Notes under the pieces: generated by a model
Told to the model about the DNA's origin: nothing
Databases searched by the model: none
The model's input: the letters and a program-made list of their open reading frames with translations, nothing else
Program-made: the position numbers and the translations under genes
In this document: piece after piece, positions 24,839-29,339 of the stretch
Position numbering within the stretch: position 1 is the stretch's first letter
Layout of the letters: every line of letters begins with the position of its first letter
From: Coriobacteriia bacterium
GTDB taxonomy: Bacteria > Actinomycetota > Coriobacteriia > Coriobacteriales > Atopobiaceae
Length of the DNA: 64,000 nt
Direction: 5' to 3'
NCBI GenBank assembly: GCA_030530145.1
Contig: JAUMVN010000002.1
Coordinates: 1-64,000 of the forward strand

Positions 24839-27012
24839 TGGATAAGAAGGTCTTCAAGGTCGTGGCCGGCGCCGGCGCGTTGGCCGGGGATGGTGCGTAC
24901 CCCACGGTGAGCGCGGCGCTCGCGGCTGCGTGCGAACAGGTGCCGGACGAATCGGTGTCGGTCGAGGTCCGCGTCGCGCCCGGCGAGTACCGCGAGCGCG
25001 TTGAGATCCGCCGGCCGAACGTGACCTTGGTGGGCGAGACGGCCGAGAGCGTGCGCATCGTCTATGGCCTGGGCGCCTTCATGGAGTCCGGCGACGGCAG
25101 CGGGGTCGACGGCAAGCTCGGCACCTTCCGCACGTACACGGTGCTCGTGGACGCGGCGGACGTCGCGCTGCGCAACCTGACCATCGAGAACGACGCGGGC
25201 GACGGCCGCGAGGTCGGCCAGGGGCTTGCGCTCTACGCCGACGGCGACCGCCTCGTGGTCGACTCGTGCCGCCTGCTCGGCCACCAGGACACGCTCTTCT
25301 GCGGGCCGCTCCCGCCGCGTGAGGTCAAGCCGGGCGGCTTCATCGGCCCCAAGCAGTTCGCGCCGCGCGTCGTGGGGCGCCAGTACTTCCGCCGCTGCCT
25401 CATCGCAGGCGACGTCGACTTCATCTTCGGCGGCGGGCGCGCGTACTTCGAGGGCTGTGAGGTCCGCTCGCTCAACCGGAACATGGACGTCAACGGCTAT
25501 GTGACCGCGGCGTCCACGCCTGAGGGCGAGCCGTTCGGGCTCGTCTTCCACGGCTGCTCGTTCACGGCTGAGGTGGGCGTCGCCGACGGCACTGTCTACC
25601 TGGGGCGCCCGTGGCGCGAGTTCGCGCAAACGGTGCTTCTCGACTGCTGGCTCGGGGCGCACATAAAGGCAGAGGGCTGGTGGGACTGGAATAAACCCGC
25701 AGCTCACGGGGGCAGCTTCTACGCGGCGGGCGCACTTCACGGGCCCGCAGGGGACGTGGCCGGCTGGCCGGAGTGGGCGCACGCGATCGCTCCGGCAGAC
25801 GCCGCGCGCCTCTCTCGCCGCGCGGTGCTTGCCGGCGACGACGGCTGGGACCCCGAGGGCGGCGAGGGCGACGCGGTCGAGACCGCGCATCTTTCCGACA
25901 ACGGTCGCACCCTGCATATCCAGGCCTACTTCGAGGACGAGCCCGCGCTGCGCCGACGCTTCGCGCGCGACGGCCGCTCTGCGGCGTTTGCCGGCGGCTC
26001 GGCTGAGGACTGGCTCGCATGGCGCGGCCGCTCGCGCGAGCGCCTCGCCGACCTGCTGGGCATCTCGCTCCTTGAACGCTGCGAGCCCGAGCCGCGGGTG
26101 CTCGAGCGGGCGCTTCTTCCCGGCGGAATTACGCGCACGAAGATGGCCATTCTCACCGAGCCCGGCGTCTGGATGCCGTTCTACCTGTTGAAACCCGCCG
26201 AGCACAAGCGCGGCGCGGACGGGCGCGCCCTTTGCTGGGTCTGCCCGCACGGCCACCAGGGCGCCGGCAAGGACTCCATCGCCGGCGTCTCAGGCGTGCC
26301 CGCGACCGACGACGCGATCCGCCGCTTCAACTACGACTACGGCCTGCGCCTCGCGCGCATGGGCTACGTGGTCGCGTGCCCCGACGCGCGCGGCTGGGGC
26401 GAGCGCCGCGACTGGAAGGGCCAGGGCGACCAAGAGCAGCTCTACCTGCGCGGCACCTGCGCCAACCAGGCGAAGATGGCCGAGCCGCTGGGGCTCTCGG
26501 TCGCGGGGCTGAACACCTGGGACCTCATGCGGCTCGTGGACTATCTGGACGCGCGCGGCGATGTCTGCATGGACGAGCTCGGCTGCCTCGGCTTTTCCGG
26601 CGGGGGAGAGCAGACGCTCTATCTCGCGGCGCTCGACCCGCGCGTGAAGAAGGCCTTCATCTCGGGTTACCTGTACGGCTACGCGGACGCGCTGCTGCAC
26701 CTCAACGGCAACTGCGCCTGCAACTACGCGCCCGGCCTGTGGCGGCTCTTCGACATGGGCGACATCGCCTCGCTCATCGCGCCGCGCCCGCTCGTGGTGC
26801 AGAGCTGCGAAGGCGACCACCTCAACGGCCCGCGCGGCCTCGCGAACGTGGACGAGCAACTCGAGGTCGTGCGCGCGGCCTACGACCTCGCCGGCCACGA
26901 CGAGAACCTCGCGCACGAGGTCTGCCCCGGCGGTCACCACCTCGGCGTGTTCAACCTGGAAGAAGAAATCGCCTGGCTCGACGACCAGGCGAGGAAGGAC
27001 TGCGAACGATGA
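24838..27012 (+). CDS. Two-domain pectin esterase: CE8 methylesterase fused to an alpha/beta hydrolase
   Basis: A 724-residue fusion. Residues about 1-300 are a CE8 pectin methylesterase beta-helix: Asp151 in GHQDTLF (acid), Asp194 in GDVDFIFG (nucleophile) and GRPW at 256-259. Residues about 385-720 are an alpha/beta hydrolase with HGHQGAG, Ser587 in GFSGGG and a late GGHH segment, resembling carbohydrate acetyl-esterases. One protein may thus strip both methyl and acetyl esters from homogalacturonan oligomers. There is no signal peptide. It is coupled to its neighbours by 1-base and 4-base overlaps (24838; ATGA at 27009). Domain identities are strong; the second activity is inferred. Confidence 0.85.
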   Translation: MDKKVFKVVAGAGALAGDGAYPTVSAALAAACEQVPDESVSVEVRVAPGEYRERVEIRRPNVTLVGETAESVRIVYGLGAFMESGDGSGVDGKLGTFRTYTVLVDAADVALRNLTIENDAGDGREVGQGLALYADGDRLVVDSCRLLGHQDTLFCGPLPPREVKPGGFIGPKQFAPRVVGRQYFRRCLIAGDVDFIFGGGRAYFEGCEVRSLNRNMDVNGYVTAASTPEGEPFGLVFHGCSFTAEVGVADGTVYLGRPWREFAQTVLLDCWLGAHIKAEGWWDWNKPAAHGGSFYAAGALHGPAGDVAGWPEWAHAIAPADAARLSRRAVLAGDDGWDPEGGEGDAVETAHLSDNGRTLHIQAYFEDEPALRRRFARDGRSAAFAGGSAEDWLAWRGRSRERLADLLGISLLERCEPEPRVLERALLPGGITRTKMAILTEPGVWMPFYLLKPAEHKRGADGRALCWVCPHGHQGAGKDSIAGVSGVPATDDAIRRFNYDYGLRLARMGYVVACPDARGWGERRDWKGQGDQEQLYLRGTCANQAKMAEPLGLSVAGLNTWDLMRLVDYLDARGDVCMDELGCLGFSGGGEQTLYLAALDPRVKKAFISGYLYGYADALLHLNGNCACNYAPGLWRLFDMGDIASLIAPRPLVVQSCEGDHLNGPRGLANVDEQLEVVRAAYDLAGHDENLAHEVCPGGHHLGVFNLEEEIAWLDDQARKDCER

Positions 27013-27671
27013 AGAAAAACCTGAGCGAACTGACCATCTGCTGTTTCGGTGACTCTACCACCTGGGGCGACAACGGCACCGGCGAGGGCGGGCCGAGCAT
27101 CAGCTGGACGTCGCACCTGGGCGCGCTGCTTGACGGCGCCACGGTCGAGAACTTCGGCGTCAAGGGCTCGCGCCTGGCCATCAAGGCCGACCGCGACGAC
27201 TCCTTCGTCGAGCGCCTGGACGGCATCGACGCCGATGCCGACGTCTATGTGCTCTTCGGCGGCGTGAACGACTTTTCCCGCAACGTCCCCCTGGGCCAGA
27301 TGGGCTCCACCGACACGCACGAGTTCTACGGCGCGCTCGACTACCTGGTGCGCGGCATCACGGAGCGCTCGCCCGAGGCGCGTCTCGTGGTCATGACCCC
27401 GTGCAAGACCTCCGGCAAGCACGAGAAGGACATCCCCGGCAGCTTCGAGGAGAACCACCTGGGCCTTACGCAGGAGCCCTACGTCGCCGCGGTGCACGAG
27501 GTGGCCGACCGTTACTCGGTGCCCGTGATCGACCTCTACGCCGGCAGCGGTATCTCGCCCTTCTTGCCCGAGCACCGCGAGCGCTACATGCCCGACGGCC
27601 TGCACTACTCGCCGGCAGGCTACGAGCGCCTGGCGCATCGCATCGCCGCCGGCCTCCGCGCGATCCTCTAG
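27009..27671 (+). CDS. Small SGNH/GDSL-family esterase
   Basis: A 220-residue single-domain SGNH hydrolase: GDST (Ser16) block I, FGGVNDF block III and PDGLHYS block V with the Asp-His pair. It is the expected size for a simple carbohydrate or acetyl-esterase. ATG 27009 overlaps the upstream stop (ATGA), so it is the last gene of a three-gene esterase operon at 24032-27671, following GH28. No signal peptide is seen. It is the third SGNH esterase type in the locus and not a close relative of the two large ones. Confidence 0.82.
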   Translation: MKKNLSELTICCFGDSTTWGDNGTGEGGPSISWTSHLGALLDGATVENFGVKGSRLAIKADRDDSFVERLDGIDADADVYVLFGGVNDFSRNVPLGQMGSTDTHEFYGALDYLVRGITERSPEARLVVMTPCKTSGKHEKDIPGSFEENHLGLTQEPYVAAVHEVADRYSVPVIDLYAGSGISPFLPEHRERYMPDGLHYSPAGYERLAHRIAAGLRAIL

Positions 27672-27710: not shown

Positions 27711-27931
27711 GCCCCTCAAGTAACGGTCGTAGCAACCAGCGCGCCCGAGCCGCCCCCTAAATGACGGTTGCAGCAATGGACGAGCCTGCTTCGCCCCTCA
27801 GATGACGGTTGCAGCAACGCGGCATTGCTGCAACCGTCATCTGAGGGGCGCTTTTGTCTCCAACAATGCTGCAACCGTCATTTAGGGGGCGCCGCGCTTC
27901 TCGCCGTTGCTACAACCGTCGTTTGAGGGGC
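27711..27931. repeat. Three-layer nested palindrome (R1-R2-R3-R3'-R2'-R1')
   Basis: Six about 25-bp units are related in sequence (core GACGGTTGCAGCA). R3 (27793-27817) pairs perfectly with R3' (27825-27849) across a 7-nt loop, R2 (27752-27775) pairs perfectly with R2' (27867-27890), and R1 (27711-27736) pairs at about 22 of 26 positions with R1' (27906-27931). Unit-specific variants match only their nested partner, for example CTAAATG with CATTTAG and CTCAGATG with CATCTGAG. Confidence 0.88.
27793..27856 (+). terminator. Intrinsic terminator formed by the innermost hairpin R3/R3'
   Basis: The perfect 25-bp R3/R3' stem with its 7-nt loop is followed by GCTTTTG (27850-27856), so it can serve as the terminator of the esterase operon ending at 27671. 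Confidence 0.7.
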
Positions 27932-28106: not shown

Positions 28107-29339
28107 ATGGGATGCAACCAGATTCTGGACCGCTACATTGCCCAGCTCGTGGAGAACTCCACGCCGCAGGCGCCCGCGTGGAACATCGAGAAGATCCGCG
28201 CCGGCAAGGAGAACACCTGGAACTACATCGACGGCTGCATGATCAAGGCGCTCATCGAGCTCAACGAGATCACCGGCGAGGACCGCTACCTGGAGTTCGC
28301 CGACAGCTACATCGACTTCTTCGTCCAGGACGACGGCACCATCAAGCACTACGACCCCACCGAGTACAACCTCGATAACGTCAACGCCGGCAAGACCCTC
28401 TATCGCCTCTACGAGATCACCGGCAAGGAGAAGTACCGCCTTGCCATGGACACGATCTACAGCCAGCTCGAGTGCCAGCCGCGCACCAAGGAGGGCGTCT
28501 TCTGGCACAAGGCGGTCTACCCCAACCAGATCTGGCTCGACGGCATGTACATGGCCCAGCCGTTCTACATGCAGTATGAGCTCTCGTTCCACAACCGCCG
28601 CGCCTGCTCCGACTCGTTCCACATGTTCCAGGTGGTCCGCGACCTCATGCGCAACGAGAAGAACGGACTGTACTACCACGCCTACGACTCGTCCAAGAAG
28701 CAGTTCTGGTGCGACCCCGTGACCGGCCTCTCCCAGAACTTCTGGCTGCGCGCCGAGGGTTGGTTCGCCATGGCGCTCATCGATACCTGGGAGCTCATGC
28801 CGCCCTCGATGTCCGCCGAGAAGGACGGCCTGCGCGAGATGTTCGTCGACCTCATCGACTCCATGCTGCCCTACCAGGACGAGAAGACCGGTATGTGGCA
28901 CCAGGTTATCAACCTGCCGAACATCGCCCCCAACTACCTCGAGGAGTCCGGCAGCGCCATCTTCGCAAACGCCATCATGAAGGGCTGCCGCCTGGGCGTC
29001 CTCCCCGAGCGTTACTACGCCTACGGCCGCCGCGCGTTCGACGGCGTCTGCGAGACCTGCCTCTCCGAGAAGGACGGCCAGCTCGCCCTCGACAACATCT
29101 GCCTGGTCGCGGGTCTCGGCAACAACACGCACCGCGAGGGCACCTTCGACTACTACATGCGCGAGCCCATCGTCAAGAACGACGCCAAGGGCGTGGCCCC
29201 GCTCGTGCTCGCCTACATCGAGACCATGAAGCACGACAAGCTCGACGGCAAGTGCGACCCGATGAGCCCGGCCGGCTGCTGCTCGGTCGAGGATCCCTGG
29301 GGCGGCTACACCCCCGGCATCAACGGGAAGAAGGCGTAG
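28107..29339 (+). CDS. GH105 unsaturated galacturonyl/rhamnogalacturonyl hydrolase (second copy)
   Basis: A 410-residue (alpha/alpha)6-barrel GH105 enzyme with the catalytic Asp145 in PNQIWLDGMYMAQPF, plus ENTWNYIDGCM and QNFWLRAEGWFAMAL. It removes the unsaturated uronate from oligosaccharides made by lyases. ATG 28107 has GAGAGAGGGAAG in front; an upstream in-frame start at 27957 would overlap the operator and is rejected. It is not a close paralogue of the GH105 at 7648, so substrate ranges probably differ (rhamnogalacturonan versus galacturonan). It begins a three-gene operon under motif B. Confidence 0.88.
   Translation: MGCNQILDRYIAQLVENSTPQAPAWNIEKIRAGKENTWNYIDGCMIKALIELNEITGEDRYLEFADSYIDFFVQDDGTIKHYDPTEYNLDNVNAGKTLYRLYEITGKEKYRLAMDTIYSQLECQPRTKEGVFWHKAVYPNQIWLDGMYMAQPFYMQYELSFHNRRACSDSFHMFQVVRDLMRNEKNGLYYHAYDSSKKQFWCDPVTGLSQNFWLRAEGWFAMALIDTWELMPPSMSAEKDGLREMFVDLIDSMLPYQDEKTGMWHQVINLPNIAPNYLEESGSAIFANAIMKGCRLGVLPERYYAYGRRAFDGVCETCLSEKDGQLALDNICLVAGLGNNTHREGTFDYYMREPIVKNDAKGVAPLVLAYIETMKHDKLDGKCDPMSPAGCCSVEDPWGGYTPGINGKKA

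Follow-up and report, generated by a model that had tools for sequence, protein, structure and literature searches.

A 221-nt palindrome separates two genes in the window analysed here, the first 64,000 nucleotides of a contig from a Coriobacteriia bacterium of the Atopobiaceae. Its six repeated units raise the question of what is being maintained at this locus: one long hairpin, an RNA signal, a mobile repeat or a set of sites for a protein.

Layout of the window array

The original prediction had described six units of about 25 bp as a layered palindrome, R1-R2-R3-R3'-R2'-R1'. This arrangement is real and beyond chance: five matches at three or fewer mismatches were found, compared to 0.00 in shuffled sequences. 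The array at 27711-27931 contains three 25-bp units on the minus strand followed by three on the plus strand, with a period of exactly 41 bp and a centre of 7 bp, and its RNA fold is highly stable (z = -14). The array begins 40 bp beyond the stop codon of the upstream gene and ends about 175 bp before the start of the downstream gene, and both genes lie on the same strand. We take the downstream gene to be a GH105-like unsaturated glycuronyl hydrolase, a predicted function.

27010..27671 (start approximate), plus strand: upstream gene in the ORF list, SGNH/GDSL-type hydrolase, named for its GDS motif
27711..27735, minus strand: outer left unit R1, 25 bp, 4 mismatches to the family consensus
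27752..27776, minus strand: middle left unit R2, 25 bp, 2 mismatches to the consensus, 41 bp from R1
27793..27817, minus strand: inner left unit R3, 25 bp, 1 mismatch to the consensus, 41 bp from R2
27818..27824, no strand: 7-bp centre CGCGGCA, dyad at 27821; in the family the length is kept and the letters are not
27825..27849, plus strand: inner right unit R3', 25 bp, 25/25 identical to the reverse complement of R3
27850..27857, plus strand: T-rich tail GCTTTTGT 3' of the inner hairpin, a possible intrinsic terminator of the upstream gene, from sequence
27866..27890, plus strand: middle right unit R2', 25 bp, 24/25 with R2
27907..27931, plus strand: outer right unit R1', 25 bp, 21/25 with R1
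28107..29339, plus strand: downstream gene in the ORF list, GH105-like by resemblance, with relatives in Collinsella and Kribbibacterium

Two layers had been predicted to pair perfectly and the outer one at 22 of 26 positions. The inner layer does so; the middle layer carries one mismatch, and the outer value corresponds to 21 of 25 in the 25-bp frame used here. The inner hairpin was also thought to double as a terminator, and a hairpin with the U-tract GCTTTTGT is present at 27825-27857. T tracts are enriched in the family, yet lacking in several other arrays. Judged from its sequence, the inner hairpin of the window array may also terminate transcripts.

A family of arrays in one genome

The assembly that contains the window (G000) is a draft of one strain, 2.47 Mb in 57 contigs and 97.5% complete. 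It holds 17 intergenic arrays, 16 of which span a centre (87 units counted); the remaining one, C8, ends at a contig end. The family consensus of the oriented 25-bp unit is TTGCTGCAACCGTCRTTTNNGGGGC. In all 16 spanning arrays the innermost units start 32 bp apart around a centre of 7 bp with no conserved sequence. Spacing between units on the same side is 41 bp throughout, with a single exception of 40 bp, and the unit sequence is kept while the spacers are not. Constant whole-turn spacing across unconserved spacers, as in a phased array, is therefore found here, and in relatives the centres are quantised as well (below).

Each side carries one to four units, in the combinations 3+3, 2+3, 3+2, 2+4, 4+2 and 1+3; counts of 3+1 or 2+0 belong to arrays that meet a contig end. 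Contigs C8, C13 and C50 start or stop within or beside arrays. Apart from a T-rich stretch that often follows inner units, spacers are similar in a few copies, C27a/C27b and C54c/C54d, that look like local duplicates. A genome-wide search for single R units, suggested with the original prediction, returned no stray copy in this genome: all 62 matches to the 18-base core sit in arrays. In one array on C13, the outermost unit (L035:1543-1567) contains the stop codon and last residues of the upstream gene.

A 25-bp repeat with a constant spacer length of 16 bp resembles a CRISPR array. Unlike CRISPR arrays, these have mirror-inverted halves, only 4-6 degenerate units and 17 loci. The units invert at every spanning centre, and no cas gene was recognised by eye in the flanking ORFs.

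Partner matching across the family

The palindrome had been read as one 221-nt hairpin, maintained by selection or by gene conversion between nested partners, or built up as palindromes inserted into one another, with variants that match only their nested partner. In the window array, partner matching holds. Among its six possible pairings the nested register is the best, with 70 of 75 positions identical versus 62-66. Across the family it does not: nested identity over 16 arrays averaged 20.4 where permutation gave 20.3 (p = 0.22), and when the window array was left out the same test gave p = 0.66. Variants are common to several arrays; CTCAGATG, for example, recurs in C54c and C54d, where the nested partner lacks it.

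Arrays with one, two and three complete layers coexist in this genome, a point in favour of this reading, but insertion at the centre does not alone account for the constant period and the often unequal left and right counts. What is kept across the family is unit sequence and spacing. The original prediction had named simple tandem duplication without partner-specific matching as the finding that would speak against it. The other arrays of this genome indeed lack such matching; their units are not simple tandem duplicates, as the spacers differ. Because partner-specific matching fails across the family, the hairpin is not supported as the selected unit, and we regard this whole explanation as very improbable.

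Counts of unit pairs exceeded those in column shuffles, a control that leaves in place the kinship among units of one array. Such kinship can explain the covariation, and we therefore rejected the latter as a demonstration of an RNA helix.

Arrays in other genomes

A covariance model of the unit found it in no other species among 140 genomes of the family; the single match, in G150, was rejected as an unrelated terminator-like hairpin. The unit was also absent from phages, plasmids and viral contigs, and its exact tandem pattern from contigs of named genomes, searches from which records of the same species were possibly excluded.

A motif-blind detector revealed that inverted arrays recur, with different units, in a congener (G001) and in further members of the family. 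The congener has 85 matches of TCRCACGAAGGNNNNTTCTGYRCAA. Its 16 inspected arrays are mostly 2+2 with a period of 40 bp, and their centre distances are 120 (7 arrays), 150-152 (6) or 161 (3). G083, from another genus, has a related unit, a 41-bp period and a centre distance of 149-150. In a further genus, g4, the unit ATCRCACGARCGNNNNTTTTGC has a period of 40 bp and a centre distance of about 114-115, 124-126 or 135; G137 has 19 such arrays, G036 at least 14 and G133 at least 10. The number of arrays per genome is similar (17, about 21 and 19). Arrays in the relatives are 2+2 with a centre of 93-136 bp and a core of their own, whereas those in the window's genome have a 7-bp centre without a core. 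No convincing array position is shared between the window's genome and the relatives. G001 or G083 and g4 have a few candidate shared positions, next to trmL-like, ligA-like and CorC-like genes.

Arrays of the window's genome and of the relatives agree in the length and period of their units, are mirror-symmetric and intergenic, and occur in similar numbers per genome; we therefore infer that they form a single class.

Other array types were seen in G021, G004 and G006. In G021 an inverted array (L184:16780-17075) has a 21-bp unit, CGAACGGCCTCNRRTGCGCGA, in alternating steps of 32 and 29 bp (61 bp in total), and further matches of this unit are scattered through the genome. Units of about GTGCAGGTTGCGGACGGT alternate in orientation with a 61-bp period in G004 (L272:7700-7950). 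In G006, about seven near-identical 51-bp tandem repeats contain the palindromes CGCTTAGCCACGCCTAAGCG and CCCGCCGCGGG (L275:9139-9500). Bifidobacterium vespertilionis has two adjacent arrays of palindromic units, with periods of 52 bp (TTTGCATATACATGTATACGCAA) and 51 bp (TTCTGTAAATNNGTTACAGAA) (L095:320-1070).

Orthologous loci and helical phasing

Most G036 arrays share loci with G137 arrays, and several are also found in G133. In 14 orthologous g4 pairs, identity was 91% in units, 53% in the degenerate N4, 53% in spacers and 42% in flanks; finding the units by their pattern raises the 91% somewhat, although neither orthology nor spacing was required in doing so. Between DAHP-synthase-like and dipeptidase-like genes, an alignment of three species gives a clear phylogenetic footprint. 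Upstream of this dipeptidase-like gene (L282, L288, L285), the TTTTGC of the outermost right unit lies 16 bp before TAAGAT, and the unit looks as if it overlaps a -35 box.

Centre distances of 115/124-126/135 and of 120/151/161 cluster at a repeat of 10.3 bp (R 0.92-0.98), and orthologous centres can differ by 10 bp. These distances are as expected for proteins along a single face of B-DNA, not for an RNA helix. It was only in the relatives, whose units differ from that of the window's genome, that unit selection and phased centres were shown.

Many centres in g4, G001 and G083 contain an asymmetric core, approximately AACTGGG or ATCTGGG, with an adjoining AT-rich part. By eye, the core showed no replication-strand bias in G137 (4 versus 5 on the right replichore, 6 versus 4 on the left). 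The centre of L383 (G036) aligned better with that of L376 (G137) when reversed (0.66 versus 0.35), as if inverted between the arms; L393 and L399 versus L381 gave a second, weaker case.

Alternative explanations

Could the arrays act as RNA? A bidirectional terminator or an mRNA 3'-end stabiliser, its stem lengthened by the outer units, would account for the very stable fold and for the T residues, which are commoner after inner than after outer units in the window's genome (mean 2.5 versus 1.3 T in 8 nt, p = 0.004). Rough ORF calling identified both neighbours of 12 arrays in that genome; these genes are tandem or convergent in every case and never divergent, as would fit terminators. Divergent genes flank about a third of the G137 arrays, again by rough ORF calling, and centre length there follows the B-DNA repeat. 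A location at 3' ends fits the window's genome and not G137, and was rejected as a general rule. This difference makes a pure terminator less likely and lends weight to an architectural or mixed role. The two sides often differ in their count of outer layers, which do not match their partners, and an RNA stem needs no exact 41-bp period with unrelated spacers. Rfam returned sub-threshold matches only, mostly to miRNA hairpin models. An RNA-level element is in our judgement improbable as the general explanation.

The main rival is spread by a Y1 (HUH) transposase, such as RAYT or TIRYT, that recognises the inverted units, making the arrays mobile or formerly mobile miniature elements like REPINs or TIRtrons. 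REP, BIME and REPIN elements are short palindromic intergenic repeats of species-variable sequence with several proposed roles, including termination, and TIRtrons are likewise intergenic inverted repeats that vary between species (PMC3116915, PMC3733652). The arrays resemble the former in being intergenic and palindromic, with inverted pairs able to form hairpins; the inner units, 25/25 around 7 nt in the window array, form such a pair in all spanning arrays. Unit and loci are specific to each of the two congeners, and the apparent local duplicates also fit mobility. However, REP, BIME and REPIN elements are doublets, whereas the arrays repeat direct units every 41 bp in two mirrored halves, and the window's genome has only about 17 loci, no single units and unrelated spacers of constant length. 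REP stem-loop units have a GTAG or CGTC tag at one end, a feature on which the comparison is mixed: the consensus has CGTC, but internally (positions 11-14), and no GTAG, and by eye a unit is not a self-complementary stem-loop of the REP kind. TIRtrons carry terminal inverted repeats, often GGGGWSAS, around a TIRYT gene (PMC3733652). Short inverted repeats around a centre are shared with the arrays, but no gene lies inside the latter, and the unit end, GGGGC followed mostly by G, misfits that motif.

In favour of this rival, the transposase gene itself provides a parallel in layout. The one Y1_Tnp gene of the window's genome, on C52, is RAYT/TIRYT-like and flanked by its own 35-bp inverted tandem repeats, two on the left and three on the right (L089:955-1021, 2102-2206). 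These differ from the array unit in sequence and period, and the array unit is absent from this single locus, although a 97.5% complete draft could lack a second gene. Array units are likewise missing from the repeats at the Y1 loci of G001 and G083, and G004 lacks a Y1_Tnp gene yet carries its own type of array. With no RAYT flanked by an array unit, the association that defines these elements is wanting, and we rejected the link. Spread of whole copies should give shared spacers, but spacers are unrelated in most copies. Copy number is alike across species, and the g4 arrays combine orthologous positions and unit selection with helical phasing. Inspection of the window array by eye revealed no target-site duplication. 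Two arrays in G001 (L311, L312) lie directly 3' of apparent copies of an IS3-type transposase gene. Mobile repeats are, on balance, an unlikely explanation, more credible than an RNA element.

A proposed platform for a DNA-binding protein

We consider it probable that the 17 arrays are helically phased, oriented sites for a putative chromosomally encoded DNA-binding protein with an architectural or regulatory role. With a 41-bp period close to four helical turns, the oriented 25-bp sites would all face the same side of the DNA, in two halves that mirror each other. Such a protein, chromosomal and sequence-specific, would occupy them cooperatively and build a symmetric nucleoprotein platform, which may serve chromosome architecture, control of adjacent genes or both. 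The long palindrome would be a by-product of the mirror arrangement, and the innermost hairpin might additionally end transcripts. The analysis shows the family, its geometry and the missing partner specificity, and in the relatives the selection on units and the quantised centre length; that a protein binds the units, and what the arrays do, is proposed.

Sites of parS, matS, Noc and SlmA number from about 20 to some tens per chromosome, serve one protein each and are inherited vertically; each is a short palindrome with a conserved motif, occurring alone or in loose groups. The arrays are similar in number per chromosome. Unlike those sites, each platform combines 4-6 phased sites of 25 bp, and the motif differs from one species to another.

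More tentatively, and with rather less confidence than in protein binding itself, the arrays may represent a system, not described before, that organises or silences the chromosome in this Coriobacteriales family. Each chromosome would carry about 15-20 mirror-image phased platforms, inherited vertically within a genus, with the motif replaced between species together with a fast-evolving DNA-binding protein. In the relatives, platforms would also have an asymmetric, occasionally inverted core. A search of the open-access literature found nothing on such arrays in Coriobacteria or Olsenella, nor on nested inverted repeats like these.

Dispersed intergenic palindromes are usually classed as REP elements or terminators. 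Here, the geometry, together with unit selection at orthologous loci and quantised spacing in the relatives, points instead to chromosome-wide protein platforms. The arrays could be used as bait for the binding protein. If the proposed system is real, the differing motifs of the congeners would offer a natural example of a DNA-binding protein co-evolving with all of its sites.
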